Source: an uncultured Paracoccaceae bacterium
Lineage (GTDB): Bacteria; Pseudomonadota; Alphaproteobacteria; Rhodobacterales; Rhodobacteraceae
NCBI GenBank assembly: GCA_913062865.1
Contig: CAJXWO010000005.1
Coordinates: forward strand, 1 to 64,000
Direction: 5' to 3'
DNA: 64,000 nt
Shown here piece after piece: positions 19,736 through 62,559 of this stretch. Below the pieces are notes generated by a model. The model worked only from the letters and a program-made list of their open reading frames with translations. It did not search any database and was not told the DNA's origin. The translations under genes and the position numbers were made by a program. The number at the start of each line of letters is the position of its first letter. Positions within the stretch are counted from its first letter, which is position 1.

Positions 19736-20800
19736 CTATGCCGCCTCGTGCATGAGGATCGCCGCCTCGGAAGACGACAGGGTGCGCCGTGCATAGGCAC
19801 CGTAGAGGATCGGATCCTCGACAAGATCGGGGAACTGGCCGGTCAGGCGGGCCCGGTCCTCGTCCGACAGGCTTGCAAGCGATGCGCTGGCCGGATGGAA
19901 GCTTTCGGTTTCCACGCCATTGGCCCAAAGCACCTGGTGCCGGTCCAGCAGAAGGTGGATATACAGCACTTCGCGCACATTGGTGTCGACGCGAATGGTC
20001 GACCCGTTCACCATATCCTTGGCGGCAACCAGCACCTCGGGCGTGTTGAACAGCGCCAGGGCGGTGCGCCCGCGCACCAGCATGCGGTGCTGGGGCGACA
20101 CCAAGAACTCTTGGTCCGGACGCTCGATGCCCAGAGCGCCGGTGCTGATCCGGATCGGGCGCAATTCCGGCATCGCGTAAAGCCGCGCGCCGGTCATGCG
20201 GCGCCCGCCAGTCCAAAGGATTTCTTGTGCGCCGTCATCCTTGGTCAGGACCCGGTCGCCCTCGCGCAGCTCTTCCACTGGGCGGTCCCCGTCCGGAGTG
20301 CGGATCCGCGTGCCAGGCGTGAAACAGATCACCCCGCCAGAGCCGCTGTGCATGACCGTCTCATTGACCGGTGATAGGGTGTGATGCACGACCCAAAGCT
20401 CGGTGTTGCGCGGCGGTAATTCGTCCAGGAACATCAGGAGCGGCGGAGCATCGCCCCCCACCTCGATCAGCGTGACGGTGTAGCTTTGCGACCCGTCCGT
20501 TACCACGAAACTCGCATCGCTCAGCGGATGGCCGACCTCGACCTGGTCGAGCCTCCGCGTGCCGCTGATGGCCGCACCGACAAGCCGCCGGACCATCCTG
20601 GCGGCGCGCCTGCGCGTATCTGTTTCCCCTTCGGCATGGTCGAGCTGCAAAAGCGCACTCGAGCCATCCACGCGTACCGGTTCCCCTCGCCACGACCAGG
20701 CCGCACCGACATCGAGCGCATGCAAGGGTGCCGCGCTCAGGCCGTCCAGTTCCGTTTGCGACCAGGAAATGACGAACGTGCCACGAAAGCCCGCTCTCAT
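19736..20800 (-). CDS. Hint (Hedgehog/intein) domain-containing protein
   Basis: CFTPGTRIRTPDGDRPVEELREGDRVLTKDDG block; FLVSPQHRML; single standalone ORF of 354 aa. Confidence 0.85.
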   Translation of the reverse strand: MRAGFRGTFVISWSQTELDGLSAAPLHALDVGAAWSWRGEPVRVDGSSALLQLDHAEGETDTRRRAARMVRRLVGAAISGTRRLDQVEVGHPLSDASFVVTDGSQSYTVTLIEVGGDAPPLLMFLDELPPRNTELWVVHHTLSPVNETVMHSGSGGVICFTPGTRIRTPDGDRPVEELREGDRVLTKDDGAQEILWTGGRRMTGARLYAMPELRPIRISTGALGIERPDQEFLVSPQHRMLVRGRTALALFNTPEVLVAAKDMVNGSTIRVDTNVREVLYIHLLLDRHQVLWANGVETESFHPASASLASLSDEDRARLTGQFPDLVEDPILYGAYARRTLSSSEAAILMHEAA

Positions 20801-21009
20801 TGCCTGTAACTGCCTCAGTTTGCTCGTTTTGTTTTCTTTATTGGGGAAAGGTTAACAGAAACGAATCAGTCAAAAAAGGCTAAACTTTCAGATCATTCCG
20901 ATCCGCACAGGACTGCGCCCATCGGGCCGCAGGGCCGGGGCTTGCCACAATCCGCTTGCACCCGGCCCCGCTGACCCGGCACAAATTTGGAAAAAAGGGG
21001 GGACAAACC

Positions 21010-21924
21010 ATGCCGCTGACCATGAACCGCGAGGTGTTTATCACCTGTGCCGTCACCGGCTCGGGCGGGACGCAGGACCGCAGCCCCCATGTGCCCCGCA
21101 GCCCCGAACAGATCGCCGCCAGCGCCATCGACGCGGCCAAGGCGGGCGCGGCCATCGTCCACTGCCACGTGCGTGAGCCTGACACCGGAGCACCCACGCG
21201 TCGGTTGGAACTGTACCGCGAGGTCACCGACCGGATCCGCGCGGCCGAGGTCGATGTGGTTCTCAACCTGACCGCGGGCATGGGAGGCGACATGGTATTC
21301 GGCCCGGTCGAGGCCCCGCTGCCGCTGAAGGAAACCGGCACCGACATGATCGGTGCGACCCAGCGCATGGCCCATATCGCAGAATGCCTGCCCGAGATCT
21401 GCACGCTCGACTGCGGCACGATGAACTTCGCCGAGGCCGATTACGTCATGACCAACACGCCGGGCATGCTGCGCGCGATGGGCCGGATGATGACCGACCT
21501 GGGCGTTTGTCCCGAGTTCGAGGCCTTTGACACCGGCCACCTGTGGTTCGCCAAACAGCTCGTGACCGAGGGCGTGCTGAAGGACCCAGCACTTGTGCAG
21601 CTGTGCATGGGGGTGCCCTGGGGCGCGCCCAATGACCTGAACACCTACCTTGCCATGGTGAACGCGATCCCCGCGGGCTGGCACTGGTCGGCCTTCTCGC
21701 TCGGGCGCGATCAGATGCCATTCGTCGCCGCCGCGGTATTGGCGGGCGGCAATGTGCGCGTGGGGCTCGAGGACAACCTGTTCCTCGACAAGGGCGTGCT
21801 GGCGACCAACGCGCAACTGGTCGAACGGGCCGTCACGGTGATCGAAGGCATGGGTGCCCGGGTCATCGGGCCGCAGGCCGTGCGCGACCGCCTCGGCCTG
21901 ACAAAACGCGCCCCGGCGGGCTGA
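21010..21924 (+). CDS. BKACE/DUF849 family enzyme, probable 3-dehydrocarnitine cleavage enzyme
   Basis: FITCAVTGSG..., AGAAIVHCHVRE, LNLTAG; adjacent to carnitine 3-dehydrogenase. Confidence 0.87.
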   Translation: MPLTMNREVFITCAVTGSGGTQDRSPHVPRSPEQIAASAIDAAKAGAAIVHCHVREPDTGAPTRRLELYREVTDRIRAAEVDVVLNLTAGMGGDMVFGPVEAPLPLKETGTDMIGATQRMAHIAECLPEICTLDCGTMNFAEADYVMTNTPGMLRAMGRMMTDLGVCPEFEAFDTGHLWFAKQLVTEGVLKDPALVQLCMGVPWGAPNDLNTYLAMVNAIPAGWHWSAFSLGRDQMPFVAAAVLAGGNVRVGLEDNLFLDKGVLATNAQLVERAVTVIEGMGARVIGPQAVRDRLGLTKRAPAG

Positions 21925-21927
21925 GCC

Positions 21928-22554
21928 ATGGCAACGATCCTTTGCTACGGCGACAGCAACACCCATGGCACGCGGCCCATGGCGATCGCGGGCGTCTCGG
22001 AGCGCTATCCGCCCGGCGCGCCCTGGCCCGACGTGATGGCCGCAGCCCTGGGCCCCGATCATCGCGTCATCGCCGAAGGGCTGCCCGGGCGCACCACCGT
22101 CCACGAAGACCATGTCGAGGGCGGCGCACGCAGCGGCATCGCCGTCCTGCCCGCGATCCTGCACAGCCACAAACCCATCGACCTGATGGTGCTGATGCTG
22201 GGCACCAATGATCTCAAGAACCGCTTTGCCGTCACCGCCTACGAAATCGCACGCTCGGCCGAGCGGATGGTGCTGGCCACCCGGGCCGAGGGCGTGGTGC
22301 GCGATATCCTGATCGTCTGCCCTGCCCCCGTGCGCGAAACCGGCACCCTGACGGATGTCTTCGCCGGGGCCGAGGCGCGGCAACGGGGGCTGTCCGATCA
22401 CCTGCGCGCCGTGGCGGAACGGCAAGACTGCGGCTTTGTCGATGCGGGCGCGCATGTGCAGGTCTCGGACCGGGATGGCGTGCACTGGGAGGCCGAGGCG
22501 CATCGGGCCTTCGGCACCGCCATGGCCCGGATCCTGCGCGACCGTCTTACCTGA
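21928..22554 (+). CDS. SGNH/GDSL hydrolase
   Basis: ILCYGDSNTHGT (block I), LMLGTNDLK (block III), DGVHWEAEAH (block V). Confidence 0.88.
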   Translation: MATILCYGDSNTHGTRPMAIAGVSERYPPGAPWPDVMAAALGPDHRVIAEGLPGRTTVHEDHVEGGARSGIAVLPAILHSHKPIDLMVLMLGTNDLKNRFAVTAYEIARSAERMVLATRAEGVVRDILIVCPAPVRETGTLTDVFAGAEARQRGLSDHLRAVAERQDCGFVDAGAHVQVSDRDGVHWEAEAHRAFGTAMARILRDRLT

Positions 22555-22568
22555 ACAGGAGCATTTCC

Positions 22569-23990
22569 ATGCCCAAGGCATCCATCATCGGCGGCGGCGT
22601 CATCGGCGGCGGCTGGGCCGCGCGGTTCCTTCTGAACGGCTGGGACGTGGCGGTCTTCGACCCCGACCCGGAGGCCGAGCGCAAGATCACCGAGGTGCTG
22701 GAGAATGCCCGCCGCGCCCTGCCCGCGCTTTACGACCGGCTATTACCCGCCGAGGGGCGGCTGAGCTTCTGCCCCACGCTGGCCGACGCCGTGACAGGTG
22801 CCGACTGGGTGCAGGAAAGCGTGCCCGAACGGCTGGACTTGAAACACAAGGTGCATGCCGAGATCACGCGCCGTGCGCCATCGGGGGCGGTCATTGGCTC
22901 TTCGACCTCGGGCTTCAAACCCTCGGAGCTCACTGCGCAGGGCGCCCGCGTGATCGTCGCGCACCCGTTTAACCCGGTCTACCTGCTGCCGCTGGTGGAA
23001 CTGGTGGGCGACGCGGCCCATTGCACACAGGCCGCCGAGATGTTGCGCGGCATCGGCATGTATCCCCTGACAGTTCGACAGGAGATCGACGCCCATATCG
23101 CGGACCGCCTGCTCGAAGCCGTCTGGCGCGAAGGGCTTTGGTTGATTAAGGACGGCATCTGCACGACCGAAGAGCTCGACGATGCGATCCGCATGGGCTT
23201 TGGCCTGCGGTGGGCGCAGATGGGCCTGTTCGAGACCTACCGCATCGCCGGGGGCGAGGCGGGGATGAAGCATTTTCTCGAACAGTTCGGCCCGGCGCTG
23301 CAATGGCCATGGACCAAGCTGATGGACGTGCCCGAATTCGACGCGGCCCTTGTCGAGCTGATCGCAGAGCAGTCCGATGCCCAATCAGGCCATATGTCCA
23401 TCTGCGAGTTGGAACGCTTGCGCGACGACAACCTTGTCGGCATGATGCGAGCGCTCAAGCGTACTGGCAGCGGCGCGGGTGGCGTGATCACAGCGCATGA
23501 GGCTGCGCTGGCTGCGCCTGCGCCCATGGGTCTGCCCGTCACCGTGGACCGCACCGTGCCCCAGACCTGGGCCGACTATAACGGCCACATGAACGAAACC
23601 CACTACCTCGAGGCGGGTGCGCAGGCCTCGGACCGGTTCATGGAGATGATCGGGGCCGACGCCGCCTATATCGCGGGCGGGCAAAGCTACTTCACCGCCG
23701 AGAACCACATCACATATCTGGACGAGGTGCTGGCCGGGTCTCGCCTGACGATCACGACCCAGGTGCTGGCGGCCAAGGGCAAGGCGCTGCACCTTTTCCA
23801 CCACATGCACCGGGGCGATGGTGTGCTGGCGGCCACGATGGAGAGCCTGCTTTTGCACGTCGACCTGACGACTCGGCGCACCAGCGATCCCGCGCCCCAT
23901 GTGCGGGAACAGATCGACCGGTTTGTCGCCGCCCATGCGGACCTGGCCCGGCCCGCGCAGGCCGGTCGGTTCGTGGGGCAGAGGCCGTAG
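22569..23990 (+). CDS. lcdH: L-carnitine dehydrogenase fused to a C-terminal 4HBT/hotdog thioesterase domain
   Basis: IGGGVIGGGWAARFLLNGWDVAVFDPD Rossmann; HPFNPVYLLPLVELVG; C-terminal VTVDRTVPQTWADYNGHMNETHYLEAGAQASDRF. Confidence 0.88.
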   Translation: MPKASIIGGGVIGGGWAARFLLNGWDVAVFDPDPEAERKITEVLENARRALPALYDRLLPAEGRLSFCPTLADAVTGADWVQESVPERLDLKHKVHAEITRRAPSGAVIGSSTSGFKPSELTAQGARVIVAHPFNPVYLLPLVELVGDAAHCTQAAEMLRGIGMYPLTVRQEIDAHIADRLLEAVWREGLWLIKDGICTTEELDDAIRMGFGLRWAQMGLFETYRIAGGEAGMKHFLEQFGPALQWPWTKLMDVPEFDAALVELIAEQSDAQSGHMSICELERLRDDNLVGMMRALKRTGSGAGGVITAHEAALAAPAPMGLPVTVDRTVPQTWADYNGHMNETHYLEAGAQASDRFMEMIGADAAYIAGGQSYFTAENHITYLDEVLAGSRLTITTQVLAAKGKALHLFHHMHRGDGVLAATMESLLLHVDLTTRRTSDPAPHVREQIDRFVAAHADLARPAQAGRFVGQRP

Positions 23991-24049: not shown

Positions 24050-25312
24050 TCAGCCCAGACCGGTCACCGCCTCATCCATCGCCGTCAGGAACCGCGCGAT
24101 CTCGGCTTCGGTATTGTAGTGGCAGACCGACACGCGGATGCAGTCCTCCATGCCCAGTGGCCCAAGGATATTGCCGCAGTAGTGATCGTTCTTTCGGATA
24201 TGGACGCGGATGCCCCGCTGCCCGAGGAACGCCACAAGGTCGGCAGAGGCAATCGCGTCAAGCCTAAGCGACACTACGCCTTCGCGCCCCTCGACCGCGT
24301 CACCGCCGACCAGCTCGACCCCCGGCATCTCGGAGAGCCCCCGCAGATTACCCGTGCCGTGCAGCATCGCGCGGATCAGGTGGGCCTCATGCGCGGCGAT
24401 CGCGCGCCCCGCAGCCTTTAGCCTGTTGCGGCGCGCACCTGTCTCGCCCATCTCGGTGCCCAGCCACTCAAGGTAGTCCACCACGTCGGAAAAGGTTGCA
24501 TAGGCCCCTGTGTCGCGTGTGCCCAACTCCCAGGCCGCCTCTGGCCCGCCGATCAGGTTCTCCTTTGCCAACCCGGTCAGCCGGTCCGACGCCCAGCCCA
24601 CGCCATAGCCATGGCGCGAGAACATCTTGTAGGGCGACACCGCGTAGCCATCGGCACCGATCGCCGCCACATCCACCGCGCCGTGGCTGGCATGCTGGAT
24701 GCCATCGACGATGAGCAAAGCGTCGGGCGCGACCTCACGGATCGCAGCGGCGATGCCCGCCACATCAACCGACATGCCTGTGACGGGCGAGGTATGTACG
24801 ATGCTCGCCACACGCACATCCGCCCGCAGATGCGCGCGGTAGGCCTCCACGCTCACGGTGCCGGTCTCGTCGTCATGGTGAACCGCGATCAATTCGCGCC
24901 CCGTGACACCGGCCCATCGGCCCATCGCGCTGCGCGACGCGGGGTGTTCCAGCGTGGAGCCGATCATCACGCCGCCCTCAGCCGCGCCCAGCGCCGCGGT
25001 GCGGATCAGGCGAAACAGAACCTCTGTCCCGCTTTCGCCCACGAACACGGTGCCACCCGGCGCGTTGAAGAACGCCGCCATATCCGCACGACCCCGGGCG
25101 ATCACCTCCATCAGCCGGGCCGAGGCCGCGTTGGCGCGGCCCTGGTTGTCGGGGATGCCCGCATAGAAGGCCGAGGTTTCGATCACCGAATTGAGATGCA
25201 GCGACCCGCCTGCGTTCTCGAGGAACAAGCGCGGGCCTTCAAAGGGACAGCTCTCCACATGGGCGAAACGGCTGCGCACGGCCTCCATCAGGCCAGGGCG
25301 GGATGTGATCAC
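24050..25312 (-). CDS. Aminotransferase class V / cysteine-desulfurase-like PLP enzyme
   Basis: LIVDGIQHASHGAVDVAAIGADGYAVSPYKMF (PLP-lysine); 420 aa. Confidence 0.85.
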   Translation of the reverse strand: MITSRPGLMEAVRSRFAHVESCPFEGPRLFLENAGGSLHLNSVIETSAFYAGIPDNQGRANAASARLMEVIARGRADMAAFFNAPGGTVFVGESGTEVLFRLIRTAALGAAEGGVMIGSTLEHPASRSAMGRWAGVTGRELIAVHHDDETGTVSVEAYRAHLRADVRVASIVHTSPVTGMSVDVAGIAAAIREVAPDALLIVDGIQHASHGAVDVAAIGADGYAVSPYKMFSRHGYGVGWASDRLTGLAKENLIGGPEAAWELGTRDTGAYATFSDVVDYLEWLGTEMGETGARRNRLKAAGRAIAAHEAHLIRAMLHGTGNLRGLSEMPGVELVGGDAVEGREGVVSLRLDAIASADLVAFLGQRGIRVHIRKNDHYCGNILGPLGMEDCIRVSVCHYNTEAEIARFLTAMDEAVTGLG

Positions 25313-27744
25313 TGGGCGGGCTCCACTTGCGGCTGGGTGTCTCTGAGCCGCAGACCATCGGGGTCAAAGGGCGGGCGGTCAAGCACCCGAGCCGTATGGG
25401 GCCGGCCCAGAATGGCCACATGCACCGTGTCGCCGGGGCCCGCCATCCCCGCCTTGAGATAGCAGATCGCAAGCGACCGGCCGACCGTGTAGCCATAGGC
25501 GCCGGAACTGACCTGGCCCGCGGGCGTGCCGTCGGGCAGGAATATGGGCTCGCCCCCGCTGGCGTCGGCCTCCTCGGCGTCGATCTCGATCAGCCTCATG
25601 ATCTCGCGCGGGGCGTTGTCCTTGATCGCCTCCCAAGCAGATTTGTTCAGGAAGTCCTTGTCAGCCCGGATGAGTCCCGCCAGCCCGCTTTCCTGCGGCC
25701 AGTATTCGGGCGAATAATCCCGGCCCCAGCTGCCATAGCCCTTTTCGACCCGCAGGCTCATCAGCGCACGGCTGCCGACGGGGCCCGCGCCCAGATCGCG
25801 CCCGGCCTCGATCAGCGCCTCATAGAGCCGCACCTGGTCTTCGGTCGCGCAATGCAGCTCCCACCCCAGATCGCCGGTGAAGGAGACGCGGACCGCCACG
25901 CAGTCCACGCCCGCCACGTCGATCCGTTTCGACCGGAAGAAGGGGAAGGCGTCGTTCGACAGTTCCGCATTGGAGATCCGCGCAAGCAGACTGCGCGCCT
26001 CGGGGCCTGCCACGTTGAACCCGCAGACCGCCTCGGTCAGGCTTTCGAACGTGGTGCCATCGGGCAGCGGCACCGCGCGGAAAAAGCGCTGGTGGAACCG
26101 TTCGGCCATGCCGGACCCGATGACCCAGAATTCGTCGTCAGCCAGCCGCGTGACGGTGAAATCCCCCGCGATCCCTCCGCGCTTGCCGATCAGCGGTGTC
26201 AGGCAGGACCGCCCCGGTTTGGTGGGCATGCGGTTGGCGAAAACGGCATTCAGCCACGCCTCGGCCCCCGGCCCGGCGAAGCGGTACTTGGCGAAGTTCG
26301 AGATGTCGATGATGCCCGCACGTTCGCGTAGCATGCAGGCTTCACGGCCCACGACCTCCCACCAGGGTTGGCGGGTGAAACCTGCGCTGTCGGGCACATC
26401 GGCGTCGAAATACAGGGGATGCTCCCAGCCATAGTTGAGCCCGAACACCGCGCCCATCCCGGCCTGCGTATCGTAAACGGGCCGCGTCCGCACCGGACGG
26501 CCGGCTATCCGTTCCTCGCCCGGGAAATGGATCTTGAAGCGGTGGGCATACTGGTCCTCGACCCGCGCGCGGGTAAAGGCCTTCCCGGCCCAAGCGCCGA
26601 AACGCGCCATGTCCCAGCCGAACATGTCAAGGCTCGGTTCGCCCTCGACCATCCATTCGGCGGCCAGTTTGCCCAGCCCGCCCGATTGCGAAAAGCCCGG
26701 GATGATGCCGCAGCAGCAGAAATAGCCCGTCATCTCGGGCACCGGACCGAACAGGGCCGAGCTGTCCGGTGACCAGATCATCGGCCCGTTGATGACCCGC
26801 TTGATGCCGGCCTCTCCGACAGCAGGCACCCGGTCGATGGCGCGCATCATGTTTTCTTCGATGCGTTCAAGGTCATCGGGGAACAGCTCGTGCCCAAAAC
26901 CCTGCGGCGTGCCATCCTCGGCCCAGAAGCGCATGTCGCGTTCATAGGCGCCGACCAGCAGGCCCTGCCCCTCTTGGCGCAGATAATACTCACCGTCCCG
27001 GTCCGCGACGGAAGGAAGGCGACGGTCCATCGCGGCGATCTGGGCGATGGTCTCGGTGACGAAATACTGATGCTCCGTGGGCATCAAGGGCAGGGTCAGA
27101 CCGGCCAGCGCGGCCACCTCCCGCGCCCAGAGTCCTGCGACATTGACCACCCAGGGCGTGCGGATATCGCCCTTTTCCGTGCGCACGACCCAGGTGCCGT
27201 CGGACTGCGGTTCGGTCCCGATCACCGGGGTGAAGCGGTGGATCTCGGCCCCGCGCTGCCGCGCGCCCACGGCATAGGCATTGGTCACGCCCGACGGGTC
27301 CACATTGCCACCGTCGGGTTCGAACATGATGCAGCGGATTCCGTCGTAATTGACCATCGGGTGCAGACGCTCGGCCTCGTCCCGGCTGACCTTGTGGAAA
27401 TTCATGCCGTAGCGGCGGGCCTTGGCCTCTTGCAGGCGCAGCTGGTGTTCGCGCGCCTCGGTCTGGGCGAGGTAGAGCGAACCGGGCTGGAACACGCCGC
27501 AGCTTTGGCCCGTCTCCGCCTCGAGCTCCTTGTACAAATTCATCGTGTAGTGCTGCAGGCGCGAGATATTCGTGCTGTCATGCAGCCCGTGGATATTCGC
27601 CGCCGCGTGCCATGTGCTGCCCGATGTCAGCTCGGAGCGTTCCAGCAGCACCACATCGGACCAACCAAGCTTGGCCAGATGGTAGAGGATCGAGCAGCCG
27701 ATCACGCCGCCCCCGATCACGACAGCCTGGGCATGGGTGCGCAT
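25309..27744 (-). CDS. FAD-dependent oxidoreductase fused to GcvT (dimethylglycine/sarcosine oxidase-like)
   Basis: N-terminal VVIGGGVIGCSILYHLAKLGWSDVVLLER; C-terminal GcvT/T-protein domain (GDLGWELHCA...); 811 aa. Confidence 0.9.
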   Translation of the reverse strand: MRTHAQAVVIGGGVIGCSILYHLAKLGWSDVVLLERSELTSGSTWHAAANIHGLHDSTNISRLQHYTMNLYKELEAETGQSCGVFQPGSLYLAQTEAREHQLRLQEAKARRYGMNFHKVSRDEAERLHPMVNYDGIRCIMFEPDGGNVDPSGVTNAYAVGARQRGAEIHRFTPVIGTEPQSDGTWVVRTEKGDIRTPWVVNVAGLWAREVAALAGLTLPLMPTEHQYFVTETIAQIAAMDRRLPSVADRDGEYYLRQEGQGLLVGAYERDMRFWAEDGTPQGFGHELFPDDLERIEENMMRAIDRVPAVGEAGIKRVINGPMIWSPDSSALFGPVPEMTGYFCCCGIIPGFSQSGGLGKLAAEWMVEGEPSLDMFGWDMARFGAWAGKAFTRARVEDQYAHRFKIHFPGEERIAGRPVRTRPVYDTQAGMGAVFGLNYGWEHPLYFDADVPDSAGFTRQPWWEVVGREACMLRERAGIIDISNFAKYRFAGPGAEAWLNAVFANRMPTKPGRSCLTPLIGKRGGIAGDFTVTRLADDEFWVIGSGMAERFHQRFFRAVPLPDGTTFESLTEAVCGFNVAGPEARSLLARISNAELSNDAFPFFRSKRIDVAGVDCVAVRVSFTGDLGWELHCATEDQVRLYEALIEAGRDLGAGPVGSRALMSLRVEKGYGSWGRDYSPEYWPQESGLAGLIRADKDFLNKSAWEAIKDNAPREIMRLIEIDAEEADASGGEPIFLPDGTPAGQVSSGAYGYTVGRSLAICYLKAGMAGPGDTVHVAILGRPHTARVLDRPPFDPDGLRLRDTQPQVEPAQ

Positions 27745-27766
27745 TTTTGTGGGTCCTTTCGTCAGA

Positions 27767-29305
27767 TCAGGGCTCGCCTGCGCCGATCTCTTCGCGGCGA
27801 TGGGCGATATAGGTTTCCAGTTCTTCCCGGATCGCGGGGTCGAGCACGGGTTCCTTGTATTCCTTCAGCGCCCTCTGCCATAGCTCGGTCGCGCGGGTCA
27901 GCGCGTCCTTGCCGCCTGCGGCCTCCCACGCGCCGTGGTTGGTCCAATCCGACAGCATGGGCTGGTAGAAGGCAGTCTCGTAGCGCTCCATAGTGTGCGC
28001 GGCGCCAAAGAAGTGCCCGCCCGTCGGCACCGACGCAATCGCATCGAAGCCGAGTGTTTGCTCGGTAAATACGAGAGGCCGCAGTACCTCGATCATGTTT
28101 TGCAGGATCTCCACGTCGAGGATCAGCTTTTCATAGGAGGCCGTCAGCCCGCCCTCGAGCCAGCCAGCGGCATGGTAGACCAGGTTGCCACCGCCCATCA
28201 CCGCGCCCCAGGTGGCCATGGTCGTCTCATAGGCGGCCTGCAGATCCACCACGTTCGAAGCATTGGCGTTCGAGGTCCGGTAGGGCAGCCCATAGCGGCG
28301 CGCGAGTTGGCCCGCGATCAGGTTCGCCTTGGTGTTTTCCGGCGTGCCGAAGGCGGGCGCGCCCGACCGCATGTCGACGTTCGAGGTGAACGCGCCATAA
28401 AGCACCGGCGCACCGGGCTTCACCAATTGCGTCAGGACCACGCCGAACAGCGCCTCGGCATTCTGCTGGGCCAGCGCGGCGGGCAGGGTCACGGGTGTCA
28501 TCGCCCCCATGAGGGTGAAGGGAGTGATCGACACGGGCTGGCCATGTTCAGCCATGGCGATCAGCCCCTCGGCCATTTCCCCGTCCAAAAGCCGCGGTGA
28601 ATTGACCGAGATGATGGTCGTCACCCCTGGGCTGTCGGCCATCTCCTCCACGCTGATGCCGCGCGCGATGGCCATCATGTTGATCCCGTCCATCGCCCGG
28701 CCCCGCCCGATGGCAGTGACGTGGAACGACAGATCGCTAAGGCGCAGATTTGCGAAATAGGTATCGAGGTGGCGGTTGTTCGCGGGCAGCTCCTGCGGCG
28801 CGGCGACCTGGTTGCCGATCATGTGGATCGCGTTGAAATGGTGGGCGAGCCGGGTGAAATTCTCGTAATCCGCCAAGTTGCCCGACCGGCGCCCCCGCAC
28901 GCAATCATGGACATTCGGCGGCCCGGCGACGAGGCCGAAGACCACCGATTGCCCGCCCAACTCGACCGCGCGATCAGGATTTCGCGGTGTCAGAGTGACG
29001 GTTTTTGGCGTTGTCGTCAGCGCGTGATCGACCAACTCCGCGTCGATCCGGACGAGGCCGCTGTCACGGTCCACCTTGGCGCCCGCGCGCTCGAAAAGGT
29101 CCATCACGCGGTCCGACATCACGCGGATGCCCAGGTCCGACAGGATGCGAAGCGAGGTCTGGTGTATCGCCTCGATCCCCTCCTCGCCCACGATCTCGGT
29201 CGGTGGATAGCTGTTCACCACCTTCTGCCAGGGCAGTTGCGGGATCGGGGCGGCACCCCTTGCGGCACGGTTGCGGCGGCCGCCTGCGCGGCGCTCATGT
29301 TTCAT
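27767..29305 (-). CDS. Trimethylamine methyltransferase (MttB/MtgB) family protein, non-pyrrolysine type
   Basis: 512 aa from the ATG at 29305 (MKHERRAGGRRNRAARG); MttB-like sequence with no in-frame TAG. Confidence 0.85.
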   Translation of the reverse strand: MKHERRAGGRRNRAARGAAPIPQLPWQKVVNSYPPTEIVGEEGIEAIHQTSLRILSDLGIRVMSDRVMDLFERAGAKVDRDSGLVRIDAELVDHALTTTPKTVTLTPRNPDRAVELGGQSVVFGLVAGPPNVHDCVRGRRSGNLADYENFTRLAHHFNAIHMIGNQVAAPQELPANNRHLDTYFANLRLSDLSFHVTAIGRGRAMDGINMMAIARGISVEEMADSPGVTTIISVNSPRLLDGEMAEGLIAMAEHGQPVSITPFTLMGAMTPVTLPAALAQQNAEALFGVVLTQLVKPGAPVLYGAFTSNVDMRSGAPAFGTPENTKANLIAGQLARRYGLPYRTSNANASNVVDLQAAYETTMATWGAVMGGGNLVYHAAGWLEGGLTASYEKLILDVEILQNMIEVLRPLVFTEQTLGFDAIASVPTGGHFFGAAHTMERYETAFYQPMLSDWTNHGAWEAAGGKDALTRATELWQRALKEYKEPVLDPAIREELETYIAHRREEIGAGEP

Positions 29306-30707
29306 GGGTGTCTCCGTTGACCGTCTGGACAGGATCATAAAGGTGGTCGGCCACCGCGGCGAAATCGCCGCCACGGGGCAGGGCAAGAACTGCATCGCGA
29401 AGGCGCTCGGCCCGCTCAGATCCCAGCACGGGGTCTGCATAGGCGTGGTATTTGGCCACGATCTCATCGGCGCCCAGCGGAGCCTCGGGCCCGCCACGGG
29501 TTTGGGTCGGGCCCGAGGAAAGGCGGCGCCCATCCGTTAACTGCAGCGTCACATCGGCCCAGCGTTCCTGTGGAAAGCGCGCGTCGAACGCGGCCGCGAC
29601 CTGTACCGTGGTGGCCTGAACAAGCCGCGCCACCTGGGCATCGCGCAGACCCGGGCCGGAAATCTCGGGCAGCCCGATCCGGCCATGGACCAACATCGCG
29701 GCCACGGCAAAGGGCAGGCTGTATTGCGCCTCTGACGTGGTCGCGGGCATGCCGGGGAACAGAGCCGCCGCGCTGGTGAAGGTGGCGATCTCGATGCCGG
29801 CAACATTGTCGGCCTTGACCCGGTGGGTGCGGGCCAGACCCGCCGCCGCCTCGATCGCAGCATGGGCCCAGCGGCAGATGGGATAGGGCTTGATATACTG
29901 CAAATCGGTTTGCCAGACGCGGCCCAGATCGGCCCAGACCTCCGCCACCTCGGGTCCGGTCACCGTGACCGCCGGTGCGCCGGTGAACCCCTGCTCGGCC
30001 AGCACCGCCGCCGACATGCCCGCCAGCGCGCCCCAACCCGAGCCATCGTGCAGCATGGTCGGGTTGGCGATTTCGCGCATCATCTGGCTGCGGGGGCCGT
30101 GGTATTCGGCGATCCCCAGGGCATGGGCCAGTTGTGCCTCGGTCAGGCCCCGCAGCCGCGCCGCCATCGCCGCGACCCCCAGCGCATTCCACGCGCCCGA
30201 GGTGTGATAGTCGCAGGCCGTCGCATGCAGCCCGATGCCCGCCCGGCCCGCGACCTCGTAGCCGATGACCAGCGCCGCCAGCGCCTCGGCCCCGCTCAGC
30301 CCGCGCCCCTCGGCCAGGGCGGCCAGCGTCGGCGCGGCGACCACACCGATATGTCCCTTGGTTGGGTTGTAGCCGTCATGGGCATCGAGATTGTCGGTCT
30401 GTGTCGCCGCCGCGTATACGGCACCGGCCAGACTGACCCGCCGCCCGTCGAAGAGCATTCGCGCGCCCGTTTGCGCGCCTGCGCCAAACAGCATCGCCGC
30501 CGTGTCGCGCCCGATGCGGCCCGCTTTCATCGGGGCGGAGGCCGCACAAATACCCAGCGTGTCGAGAAGCAAAAGCGCGGCGCGCTGCGCGGCGGCCTTC
30601 GGGATATCCGATGACCCGGTGTACAGGGCAAAGCGGCACAGCCGATCCAAGGCCGACGGTACCGGCATGACCCCACCGCTTTGCGTCTCGTCCTTCATGC
30701 CCGTCAA
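29295..30707 (-). CDS. MmgE/PrpD family protein
   Basis: 470 aa; DTLGICAASAPM..., NLDAHDGYNPTKGHIG...; start could also be at 30698 or later. Confidence 0.85.
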   Translation of the reverse strand: MTGMKDETQSGGVMPVPSALDRLCRFALYTGSSDIPKAAAQRAALLLLDTLGICAASAPMKAGRIGRDTAAMLFGAGAQTGARMLFDGRRVSLAGAVYAAATQTDNLDAHDGYNPTKGHIGVVAAPTLAALAEGRGLSGAEALAALVIGYEVAGRAGIGLHATACDYHTSGAWNALGVAAMAARLRGLTEAQLAHALGIAEYHGPRSQMMREIANPTMLHDGSGWGALAGMSAAVLAEQGFTGAPAVTVTGPEVAEVWADLGRVWQTDLQYIKPYPICRWAHAAIEAAAGLARTHRVKADNVAGIEIATFTSAAALFPGMPATTSEAQYSLPFAVAAMLVHGRIGLPEISGPGLRDAQVARLVQATTVQVAAAFDARFPQERWADVTLQLTDGRRLSSGPTQTRGGPEAPLGADEIVAKYHAYADPVLGSERAERLRDAVLALPRGGDFAAVADHLYDPVQTVNGDTHET

Positions 30708-30836
30708 GGCCTTGCGTGACAGTAAATCATCTCAAGACACAGGATACTTTTTCACTCCGGTGTCTCACGCGATAAATATTGGGTCGATGCATCAAAAAAA
30801 CGGTGTCATTATGCGTTTCGCAGACTGGATATACCC

Positions 30837-31727
30837 ATGAAACGCCCACCCCCGCCCCTGAACCAGATCCGCAGCTTCGAATGCGCCGCGCGGCACCTGA
30901 GCTTCACCCGCGCGGCCGAAGAGCTGGGCTATACTCAAGCCGCGGTCAGCACCCATATTCGCGGGCTCGAGAAATATGTGGGCCGGCCGCTTTTCATACG
31001 CCACGCCCGCAGCCTCGAGCTGACCGAAATCGGCGAGGCGTTTCTGCCCACGCTGCGGCAAGCGCTCGCGCAAATCGACACGGCAACCGATGCCATAGTC
31101 ACCAGCTCGCGCGACCAAAGCGTGATCCTTGCCTGCCCGATCAGCCTGGCCGAGAACTGGGTGCCCGGCGTCCTGGCCGGGTTTCGCGCCCAGCACCCCG
31201 AGATCGAGGTGCTGGTCCATGGCACGATCTGGAACCTCGCTGCGGACGAGATCGCGGATGTCGTCATCTCAATCCACCGCGCCGACGAGGTGCCCGAGGG
31301 GCATGGATGGCTGTGGGACGAAAAGTTGCTGCTCCTGGCCGATCCCGAGACCGCTGCAGAAATGACCCGGCCCGAGGATCTGCTGGACCGGCCCAAGATC
31401 GTGTTGTCCGGGCGGCAGGAATACTGGCGGTTGATGGGCGATGCGCTGGGGCTGCCCCGGTTCGAGATCGAGCCTGTGCTGAAAACGAACTCGTCAAACG
31501 TATCGCTGGAGTTTGCCGCGCGGGGGCTGGGCGTTGCCGTGTCGCTCTATTCGCTCTCCGAGATCTACCTGCGCCGCGGTCTTCTGGCCGAGCCGTTCGG
31601 CCTGCGCCCCCAAAGCCCTTGGAGCTATTACATCAGCGCACGGCCCGGCCGGAAAACCGGCGCGGCGCGGGAGCTTTTCGACCACATCCGCTCTGCCGCC
31701 AGAACCATGCCGGGCATCACCGGTTGA
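30837..31727 (+). CDS. LysR-type (GcvA-like) transcriptional regulator
   Basis: N-terminal wHTH NQIRSFECAARHLSFTRAAEELGYTQAAVSTHIRGLEKYVGRPLFIR; divergent from the MmgE/PrpD operon. Confidence 0.93.
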   Translation: MKRPPPPLNQIRSFECAARHLSFTRAAEELGYTQAAVSTHIRGLEKYVGRPLFIRHARSLELTEIGEAFLPTLRQALAQIDTATDAIVTSSRDQSVILACPISLAENWVPGVLAGFRAQHPEIEVLVHGTIWNLAADEIADVVISIHRADEVPEGHGWLWDEKLLLLADPETAAEMTRPEDLLDRPKIVLSGRQEYWRLMGDALGLPRFEIEPVLKTNSSNVSLEFAARGLGVAVSLYSLSEIYLRRGLLAEPFGLRPQSPWSYYISARPGRKTGAARELFDHIRSAARTMPGITG

Positions 31728-60001: not shown

Positions 60002-60033
60002 GAAAGCCGGGCCCCTATGGTGGCCCGGCTTTC
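60002..60033. terminator. Bidirectional terminator between EF-hand gene and FAD/GcvT gene
   Basis: GAAAGCCGGGCC-cctatggt-GGCCCGGCTTTC, 12-bp stem; T/A-rich flanks. Confidence 0.85.
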
Positions 60034-60054
60034 TTGGTCTTGGGTGGCTCAGGA

Positions 60055-62559
60055 TCACCCGTCGGCGCGGATCGTCTCGTTCTTCGGGTCGTAGGGGCTG
60101 TCGCAGGTCACGACCGCATCCCAAAGCGTGTTCTGCATCTTGACCCGCAGCTTCGTGCCTTCGACCGCAAGATCGGGCCGCACATAGCCCAGGCCGATGG
60201 ACTTGCCGAAGGCCACCGAATAGCCACCCGAGGTCAGGCGCCCGACGCGGGTCCCATCCTCGGTATAAAGCGCCTCGCGCCCCCAGGGGTCGGCATCCTC
60301 TGGACCGTCGATCAGAAGCGTGCAGCATTTCGACCGGATGCCCTTGGCCTCCATTTCGGCCTTGCCATGGAAATCCTTAGACAGATCCACGAAACGCGGC
60401 AGATCCGCTTCGAGCGGTGTAGCGTCGCGGCCCAGCTCGTTGCCGAACGCACGGTAGGATTTCTCCTGCCGCAGCCAGTTCTGCGCGCGCGCGCCGACCA
60501 GCTTAAGCCCGTGCGCCTCGCCCGCGGCCAGCAGTTGATCCCACAGGTTCGTCTGCATCTCGATCGGGTGATGCAGCTCCCAGCCCAGCTCGCCGGTATA
60601 GGCCACGCGGATCGCCATGGTGGGCACCATGCCCAGCTCGATCTGGCGCATGGACAGCCACGGGAAACGCTTGTTCGACAGAACGGTGTCGGGATCGGCA
60701 TCCTTGACGATCTCGCGCAACACGTTGCGCGACTTGGGACCGGCGATGGCGAAGACGCCCCATTGGGTGGTCACGTCGTGGCAGCTGATCCAGCCGAACT
60801 CATCGCGCTTGTCCTCGATCGCCTTCATCAGGAAATCGCTGTCATAGGCCTGCCAGGCACCTGAGGAGACAAGGTAGTACCTGTCCTCGGCCAGCCTCAC
60901 GATGGTGTATTCGGTGCGCGTGGTCCCTGCCGAGGTCAGCGCGTAGGTCAGGTTGATGCGGCCCACTTTGGGCAGCTTGTTGCAGGTGAACCAGTCCAGG
61001 AACGCGGTCGCGCCGGGCCCTTCGACGATATGCTTGGTGAACGCGGTCGCGTCGATCAGGCCCACGCCCTCGCGCACGGCCTTGGCCTCGTCCACGGCGT
61101 ATTGCCACCAGCCGCCGCGGCGGAAGCTGCGGGCGTCGTGGTCGAAGCTTTCGGGCGCGTCGAGCGGCCCATAGTAATTCGGCCGTTCCCACCCGTTCAC
61201 ACAGCCGAACTGCGCGCCAAGCGCCTTTTGCCGGTCATAGGCGGGCGCGGTGCGCAAGGGGCGGCAAGCGGGGCGTTCCTCGTCCGGGTGGTGCAGGATG
61301 TAGACGTGTTCGTAGGCTTCTTCGTTCTTGCGCGCGCCATACTCGGTCGTCATCCAGCTGCCGTAGCGCTTGGGATCGAGCGACGCCATGTCGATCTCGG
61401 CCTCGCCCTCGACCATCAGCTGGGCCAGGTAATAGCCCGTACCGCCCGCCGCGGTGATGCCGAAGCTGAAGCCCTCGGCCAGCCACATGTTGCGCAGGCC
61501 CGGCGCCGGACCCAAAAGCGGGTTGCCATCAGGCGTGTAGCAGATCGGGCCGTTGTAATCGTCCTTGAGCCCCACGGTTTCCGAGGACGGAATGCGGTGG
61601 ATCATCGACATGTATTCCTCTTCGATCCGCTCCAGATCGAGCGGGAAGAGGTCGGCGCGGAAGCTGTCGGGCACGCCGTATTCGAAGCACGCGGGCGCGT
61701 TGCGCTCGTAGGGGCCCAGGATCCAGCCGCCGCGCTCTTCGCGGACATACCACTTGGCATCGGCATCGCGCAGCACCGGGTGTTCGGGATTGCCCGCCTT
61801 GCGGTAGTCCACGAGCGCGGGATCGGGCTCGGTCACGATATACTGGTGCTCGACCGGGATTGCGGGGATCTTGATGCCCAAAAGCTGCGCAGTGCGCTGC
61901 GCATGGTTGCCGGTGGCGGTCACCACATGCTCGGCCTCGATCACGACCTGGTCGTCCGACGGGATCAGGTTGCCGCCCTTTTCGACCATCTTGGTGCAGG
62001 TGACCTTCCAGTGATCGCCGCACCAGTCGTAGGCATCGACCTGCCACTTGCGCTCGATTACCGCGCCATGCATCCGCGCGCCCTTGGCCATGGCTTGGGT
62101 CACGTCGGCGGGATTGATGTAGCCATCGGTCGGGTGGTAGATCGCACCTTTCAGATCCTCGGTGCGCACCAGCGGCCAGCGTTCCTTGATCTGGTCGGGC
62201 GTCATCCATTCGTAAGGAACACCCACCGTCTCGGCGGTCGAGGCATAGAGCATATATTCGTCCATACGCGCGTCGGTCTGCGCCATGCGCAGGTTGCCCA
62301 CGACGTAAAAGCCGGGGTTCAGACCCGTCTCTTCCTCGAGCGTCTTGTAGTACTTGATCGAGTAGTCGTGGATATGGGTCGTCGCGTAGGACATGTTGAA
62401 ATAGGGCAGCAGACCCGCCGCATGCCAGGTCGACCCGCTGGTCAGCTCGTCGCGCTCGAGCAGCATTACATCCTGCCAGCCCGCCTTGGCCAGATGATAG
62501 GCGATGGAGGTGCCGATGGCACCGCCACCGACGACGAGAGCTTTGACTTGGGTTTTCAT
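60055..62559 (-). CDS. FAD-dependent oxidoreductase/GcvT fusion, dimethylglycine dehydrogenase-like
   Basis: 834 aa; ALVVGGGAIGTSIAYHLAKAGWQDVMLLERDELTSGSTWHAAGLL; C-terminal GcvT domain. Confidence 0.92.
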   Translation of the reverse strand: MKTQVKALVVGGGAIGTSIAYHLAKAGWQDVMLLERDELTSGSTWHAAGLLPYFNMSYATTHIHDYSIKYYKTLEEETGLNPGFYVVGNLRMAQTDARMDEYMLYASTAETVGVPYEWMTPDQIKERWPLVRTEDLKGAIYHPTDGYINPADVTQAMAKGARMHGAVIERKWQVDAYDWCGDHWKVTCTKMVEKGGNLIPSDDQVVIEAEHVVTATGNHAQRTAQLLGIKIPAIPVEHQYIVTEPDPALVDYRKAGNPEHPVLRDADAKWYVREERGGWILGPYERNAPACFEYGVPDSFRADLFPLDLERIEEEYMSMIHRIPSSETVGLKDDYNGPICYTPDGNPLLGPAPGLRNMWLAEGFSFGITAAGGTGYYLAQLMVEGEAEIDMASLDPKRYGSWMTTEYGARKNEEAYEHVYILHHPDEERPACRPLRTAPAYDRQKALGAQFGCVNGWERPNYYGPLDAPESFDHDARSFRRGGWWQYAVDEAKAVREGVGLIDATAFTKHIVEGPGATAFLDWFTCNKLPKVGRINLTYALTSAGTTRTEYTIVRLAEDRYYLVSSGAWQAYDSDFLMKAIEDKRDEFGWISCHDVTTQWGVFAIAGPKSRNVLREIVKDADPDTVLSNKRFPWLSMRQIELGMVPTMAIRVAYTGELGWELHHPIEMQTNLWDQLLAAGEAHGLKLVGARAQNWLRQEKSYRAFGNELGRDATPLEADLPRFVDLSKDFHGKAEMEAKGIRSKCCTLLIDGPEDADPWGREALYTEDGTRVGRLTSGGYSVAFGKSIGLGYVRPDLAVEGTKLRVKMQNTLWDAVVTCDSPYDPKNETIRADG

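Follow-up and report, generated by a model that had tools for sequence, protein, structure and literature searches.

A conserved gene set around a distinct MttB-superfamily subfamily suggests an N-demethylation pathway for a carboxylated quaternary amine in Alphaproteobacteria

The window, which is the whole 64,000-nucleotide stretch analyzed here, is part of a 104-contig draft genome that is 86% complete and has Rhodobacteraceae as its nearest named relatives. Four minus-strand genes in this window encode an MmgE/PrpD-family enzyme (PrpD), an MttB-superfamily methyltransferase, a FAD-GcvT fusion, and a class V PLP-dependent enzyme; a LysR-family regulator gene diverges from the first of them (Table 1). 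A preliminary description of this DNA had called the four genes tightly coupled and the LysR gene divergent, and the open reading frames bear this out. The PrpD and MttB genes overlap by 11 nt, the MttB and FAD-GcvT genes are separated by 22 nt, and the FAD-GcvT and PLP genes overlap by 4 nt; the two overlaps imply cotranscription in the window. The best start for MttB is the ATG at 29305, which has GGAG upstream and yields the 11-nt overlap; the start at 29533 from the mechanical ORF call was rejected as too long. The PrpD start is uncertain, with TTG at 30707 and ATG at 30698 as candidates. A scan for promoters and terminators gave no informative signal; the LysR-PrpD intergenic region has no match to the sigma-70 consensus.

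Table 1. Features of the operon, the adjoining carnitine genes, and the second FAD-GcvT gene (window coordinates).
Feature	Position	Strand	Basis or remark
LysR-family regulator (GcvA-like)	30837..31727	+	Pfam HTH_1 + LysR_substrate; divergent from operon
LysR/PrpD intergenic region, presumed divergent promoters	30708..30836		sequence inspected
MmgE/PrpD-family enzyme, operon gene 1	29295..30707	-	Pfam MmgE_PrpD_N and _C
MttB-superfamily (PF06253) non-pyrrolysine methyltransferase, clade W, 512 aa	27767..29305	-	MTTB 676 bits
FAD-GcvT fusion, dimethylglycine-dehydrogenase type	25309..27744	-	DAO + FAO_M + GCV_T + GCV_T_C
Class V PLP-dependent enzyme, cysteine-desulfurase-like fold, accessory gene	24050..25312	-	Aminotran_5 125 bits
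BKACE, dehydrocarnitine-cleaving type by context; not in operon	20956..21924	+	Pfam BKACE 329 bits
GDSL hydrolase; not in operon	21928..22554	+	Pfam Lipase_GDSL_2
Carnitine 3-dehydrogenase fused to thioesterase; not in operon	22569..23990	+	NCBIfam NF005716 732 bits, cut-off 592
Second DMGDH-type FAD-GcvT of the genome	60055..62559	-	37% to operon copy; DMGDH 524 bits

PrpD resembles its nearest solved relatives, IRG1-like proteins, IDS epimerase, and cis-aconitate decarboxylase, only distantly (about 50 bits). No clear orthologue emerged among the characterised enzymes of the family: no NCBIfam model matched, and the PDB matches spread over several functions. The LysR protein scored 179 bits against the GcvA subfamily, below the cut-off of 288. 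The Pfam domains of the FAD-GcvT fusion lie in one chain, the same four-domain architecture as in mitochondrial dimethylglycine dehydrogenase (DMGDH), which is also its best solved match (569 bits); the operon copy belongs to a bacterial orthologue group for which this function is predicted. The second DMGDH-type protein of the genome is a candidate for a later demethylation step. The 3' end of its gene overlaps a tRNA-Leu gene (60013-60098, +) by about 44 nt.

In the class V PLP enzyme, the PLP lysine K229 is invariant among 41 orthologues. The position of the desulfurase cysteine is occupied by Cys in the window protein and by Ser in most of these orthologues, and TIGR01976 gave 174 of 352 bits. 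Cysteine desulfurase was therefore rejected as an assignment, and the enzyme is probably not a desulfurase.

The window MttB is a full-length PF06253 protein (676 bits against a curated cut-off of 25). No in-frame stop, that is, no amber/pyrrolysine codon, occurs inside the domain match, so pyrrolysine is not involved; the pyrrolysine model TIGR02369 gave 308 bits, below its cut-off of 525. A tree of 90 MttB sequences, calculated with a quick method and assessed by SH-aLRT values alone, places the window protein in a clade that we call W (34 tree rows, support 100), which contains an inner group of 32 (support 100). The clade of the glycine-betaine methyltransferase MtgB is far from W. It contains S. 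meliloti 4YYC, a paralogue adjoining mtgC, and the MttB paralogue at C79 of the window genome, which thus probably has a separate MtgB. The window MttB is 35-37% identical to the MtgB clade and 46% identical to the third paralogue of its genome, at C14.

Four residues of MtgB, Y94, N199, R309, and H345, were proposed to contact glycine betaine (PMC6855144), a proposal that comes from docking and not from a ligand-bound structure. Y and N are retained throughout the 11 sequences of the MtgB clade, whose pocket reads Y, N, R, H. In the alignment of W members, the positions of Y94 and N199 are A and S in 83 of 83; in the window protein these are A178 and S284, numbered in the 563-aa query (29458-27767). 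The equivalent of R309 is kept in 83/83 and that of H345 in 82/83, and both residues are proposed to hold the carboxylate. As far as residues from docking can tell, replacement of the first pair and retention of the second suggests a carboxylated substrate other than glycine betaine. On the tree and the pocket together, the idea that the window MttB is MtgB was rejected. The preliminary description had named glycine betaine and related quaternary amines as substrates known for this superfamily; glycine betaine is disfavoured for the window protein by the separate clade and the two replaced residues.

To determine how far the gene set is conserved, we searched 298 Rhodobacteraceae genomes, each of which represents a separate genus group. 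W MttB was present in 14, FAD-GcvT in 119, the PLP gene in 105, and PrpD, at E<1e-85, in 87. All 14 genomes with W MttB also had FAD-GcvT (in 13 within 14 kb of MttB), 13 had PrpD (12 within 7.5 kb), and 10 had the PLP gene (8 within 8 kb). For presence alone, the hypergeometric p values are 1.6e-6, 6e-7, and 0.005 for FAD-GcvT, PrpD, and the PLP gene, respectively, with the reservation that related genomes are not independent. Gene neighborhoods were compared for the 61 W loci that are flanked on either side by 9 kb or more of sequence, a set heavily biased toward Mesorhizobium. Within 10 kb of MttB, these loci carry LysR (90%), PrpD (80%), D-2-hydroxyacid dehydrogenase (66%), DapA-family (52%), FAD-GcvT (49%), and Sox (46%) genes. 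Near the 22 MttB paralogues outside W, none of these six was found within 5 kb.

The synteny is far beyond chance, and conservation of the set in relatives, which the preliminary description had proposed as a check, was found. The conserved unit differs from the four genes first proposed: LysR, PrpD, MttB, and FAD-GcvT are conserved and are frequently joined by genes for SoxBDAG, a D-2-hydroxyacid dehydrogenase, and a DapA-family protein, whereas the PLP gene is accessory to the cassette and not part of its core. In most genomes this gene stands alone, and a search for conserved context that might indicate its role found none. PLP and FAD-GcvT genes are paired in 14 genomes, six of which lack W MttB; some of these six pairs have PrpD or LysR (L135, L244).

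Elsewhere in Rhodobacterales and Rhizobiales, W cassettes add the sarcosine-oxidase-like, D-2-hydroxyacid dehydrogenase, and DapA-family genes. The fullest annotated form, on a Ruegeria plasmid, reads PLP - FAD-GcvT - LysR / PrpD - SoxB-SoxD-SoxA-SoxG-like - D2HDH - MttB. The shorter form on S. meliloti pSymA is without PrpD and has a GlxA/GbdR-like regulator and an OpuAC-type transporter. Quaternary-amine transporters of this type occur near seven W loci, pSymA included, and GbdR-like regulators near several. The operon in the window contains no transporter gene.

The four-subunit order of the SoxBDAG / N-methylglutamate dehydrogenase type is found in about half of the W loci and is absent from the window. 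The Sox subunits at W loci scored below the curated cut-offs for sarcosine oxidase (soxA 846 of 1164 bits, soxB 450 of 529), so they may act on a compound other than sarcosine. Inside the 10-kb range around W MttB, FAD-GcvT and Sox genes appear nearly exclusive: 27 loci have one, 25 the other, and 3 both. That the two substitute for each other was considered and rejected, because the near-exclusivity is an effect of the 10-kb limit. FAD-GcvT is present in all 14 genomes searched whole, including those of the Sox type, and in Sox-type Mesorhizobium loci it lies 11-14 kb away, past LysR. In G176 and on the Ruegeria plasmid, both are in one cluster. Their joint presence agrees better with demethylations in succession than with one system replacing the other.

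Neither the operon nor the conserved neighborhood of the W loci contains a gene for a corrinoid protein. The window genome does encode an MtgC-like corrinoid protein (234 aa, at C1, adjoining a DUF1638 gene), an MtgD-like pterin protein (also at C1), and a RamA-like activase (C43), and the MtgC orthologue explains the lack of a corrinoid gene in the operon. In each of ten named relatives (G298-G307), a single close mtgC orthologue (77-90% identity) stands against 2 to 16 MttB paralogues, so that the corrinoid protein is probably shared. Most MttB clades in these ten genomes have no assigned substrate. The corrinoid and pterin proteins are thus apparently encoded in trans and shared, and the pairing of W MttB with MtgC is putative. 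In Ruegeria pomeroyi, MtgC and MtgD are required for glycine-betaine demethylation and for methionine synthesis; the same work notes that a genome may contain as many as seven PF06253 genes, which probably act on other substrates (PMC12478193).

We lean toward a catabolic role for the operon. Its substrate would be a carboxylated betaine-type or N,N,N-trimethyl quaternary amine other than glycine betaine. W MttB would move one methyl group to the trans-encoded MtgC, from which an MtgD-like protein would hand it on to tetrahydrofolate; a RamA-like activase would keep the corrinoid reduced. The FAD-GcvT protein would then remove a second methyl oxidatively as methylene-THF. The last methyl might leave via SoxBDAG where present, and here via a FAD-GcvT protein such as the second DMGDH-type copy. 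As a guess, PrpD could process the demethylated backbone, on which the class V PLP enzyme, the D-2-hydroxyacid dehydrogenase, or the DapA-family enzyme might also act in some lineages. For the LysR protein, the presumed effector is the substrate or one of the intermediates. This class of chemistry, corrinoid-dependent plus oxidative N-demethylation, had been put forward in the preliminary description; it fits the family membership and domains of the proteins, the trans-encoded partners, and the conserved linkage, all of which are read from sequence. The oxidative role assigned to FAD-GcvT fits as chemistry, but the protein is a general DMGDH-type enzyme, found mostly in genomes without W MttB.

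A more far-reaching version is advanced tentatively, as plausible without being quite probable. W MttB would mark a B12-dependent pathway, so far undescribed, by which aerobic Alphaproteobacteria break down such a substrate; one regulon would send all three methyl groups to folate (through MttB plus MtgCD, a DMGDH-type enzyme, and a Sox-type enzyme) and open the skeleton with PrpD and, as accessories, a PLP enzyme, a D-2-hydroxyacid dehydrogenase, or an enzyme of the DapA family. Three points count against the preferred reading of the operon as such: in the window it is without a transporter, the adjoining carnitine operon points to glycine betaine, and the genome is an 86% complete draft.

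The carnitine genes (20956-23990, +) form a predicted carnitine-to-glycine-betaine operon that converges on the MttB operon and that the preliminary description had not mentioned. They could feed a second glycine-betaine operon, in which MttB makes dimethylglycine, FAD-GcvT acts as DMGDH, and neither PrpD nor the PLP enzyme takes part. The closeness of FAD-GcvT to DMGDH and its wide distribution agree with this, as does the induction by glycine betaine of two PF06253 MttB paralogues in R. pomeroyi, SPO2108 and SPO2134 (PMC12478193), neither of which was placed in our tree. Creatinase/DddP-like and isochorismatase genes in the flanks of S. meliloti and other W loci could moreover feed sarcosine. 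We nevertheless consider this alternative rather unlikely, since the genome probably has its own MtgB, the two proposed pocket residues are replaced throughout W, and conservation of the carnitine genes does not extend to other W loci (only one BKACE match, at 35%, among 80 related loci). PrpD and D-2-hydroxyacid dehydrogenase, which have no role in the glycine-betaine pathway, are conserved.

It is improbable that the genes are independent modules under one LysR, with PrpD and LysR serving an organic acid and the other three genes shuffled in as add-ons. The PLP and FAD-GcvT pairs without W MttB, the mostly solitary PLP gene, and the W loci without a nearby PrpD would suit such an arrangement; the overlapping genes in the window and the frequency of LysR and PrpD near W MttB, set against their absence near the other paralogues, speak against it. 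That W MttB works without a corrinoid partner, catalyzing another reaction on the bound substrate or being a regulator or a degenerate paralogue, would account for the missing corrinoid gene but is highly improbable given the retained R309 and H345 equivalents, the strong conservation over two orders, the one shared MtgC in every genome examined, and the single corrinoid protein that serves several MttB homologues in other organisms (PMC12478193, discussion).

The closest known system to the proposed pathway is MtgBCD of R. pomeroyi, a glycine-betaine methyltransferase and split methionine synthase (PMC12478193; PNAS 2025), which likewise combines a PF06253 methyltransferase with trans-encoded MtgC, MtgD, and RamA. 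W MttB differs from it in its supported clade, in an identity of about 36%, in the two pocket residues, and in its association with PrpD, FAD-GcvT, and the PLP enzyme. Desulfitobacterium hafniense MtgB (2QNE, 9YCE) belongs to the same superfamily (301 bits, 36% identity); W MttB keeps the equivalents of its R309 and H345 and has A and S for its Y94 and N199. In the anaerobe Eubacterium limosum, likened here by description and not by sequence, several MttB homologues (MtpB, MtcB, MtyB, and MthB) act on different quaternary amines with a shared corrinoid protein (PMC12478193); its clusters are, as far as described, without PrpD and FAD-GcvT.

In the openly licensed (CC) literature, homarine-related papers included, we found no description of the W clade or its gene set. 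The earlier suggestion of an undescribed pathway is therefore to be narrowed: the set itself did not turn up in any paper, but the general type, MtgBCD, is published for Alphaproteobacteria (PMC12478193), and the novelty lies in the MttB subfamily, which is new, and in the genes that accompany it. As many as 16 MttB paralogues occur in a single alphaproteobacterial genome, apparently with one shared corrinoid protein, and among these paralogues only the demethylation of glycine betaine has been resolved genetically in an aerobic organism (PMC12478193). The W subfamily is sharply bounded and its neighborhood is fixed, so its substrate is open to direct identification. If this is another osmolyte betaine, the cassette would give marine roseobacters and legume symbionts (S. 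meliloti pSymA) an additional, B12-dependent route for turning over organic nitrogen.

Several further genes were noted at these loci; among them, the hydantoinase/lactamase genes and the threonine-aldolase-type gene are, like the quaternary-amine transporters above, leads to the substrate, none of them decisive. In the window, a Hint-domain protein (19736-20800, -) adjoins the carnitine operon. A neighbor from the enolase superfamily in S. meliloti was considered as a clue to proline betaine and discarded, its nearest solved relative being 2PGW, an unassigned structural-genomics protein, and not proline-betaine epimerase. W loci in two lineages are flanked by non-homologous sets of hydantoinase/lactamase genes (L086, 11873-17455; L024, 13038-20363); such sets comprise HyuAB with a HisC-like aminotransferase and an Asp/Glu racemase, or a D-hydantoinase with an M20 carbamoylase. 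A link to hydantoin or creatinine was examined, and the roseobacter HyuAB proved nearest to caprolactamase, below the cut-off. In L012 (17987-19710), a GntG/threonine-aldolase-type PLP enzyme adjoins a 225-aa protein that has no Pfam match and resembles a 2OG oxygenase by eye; this pair lies beside PrpD in a few W loci.
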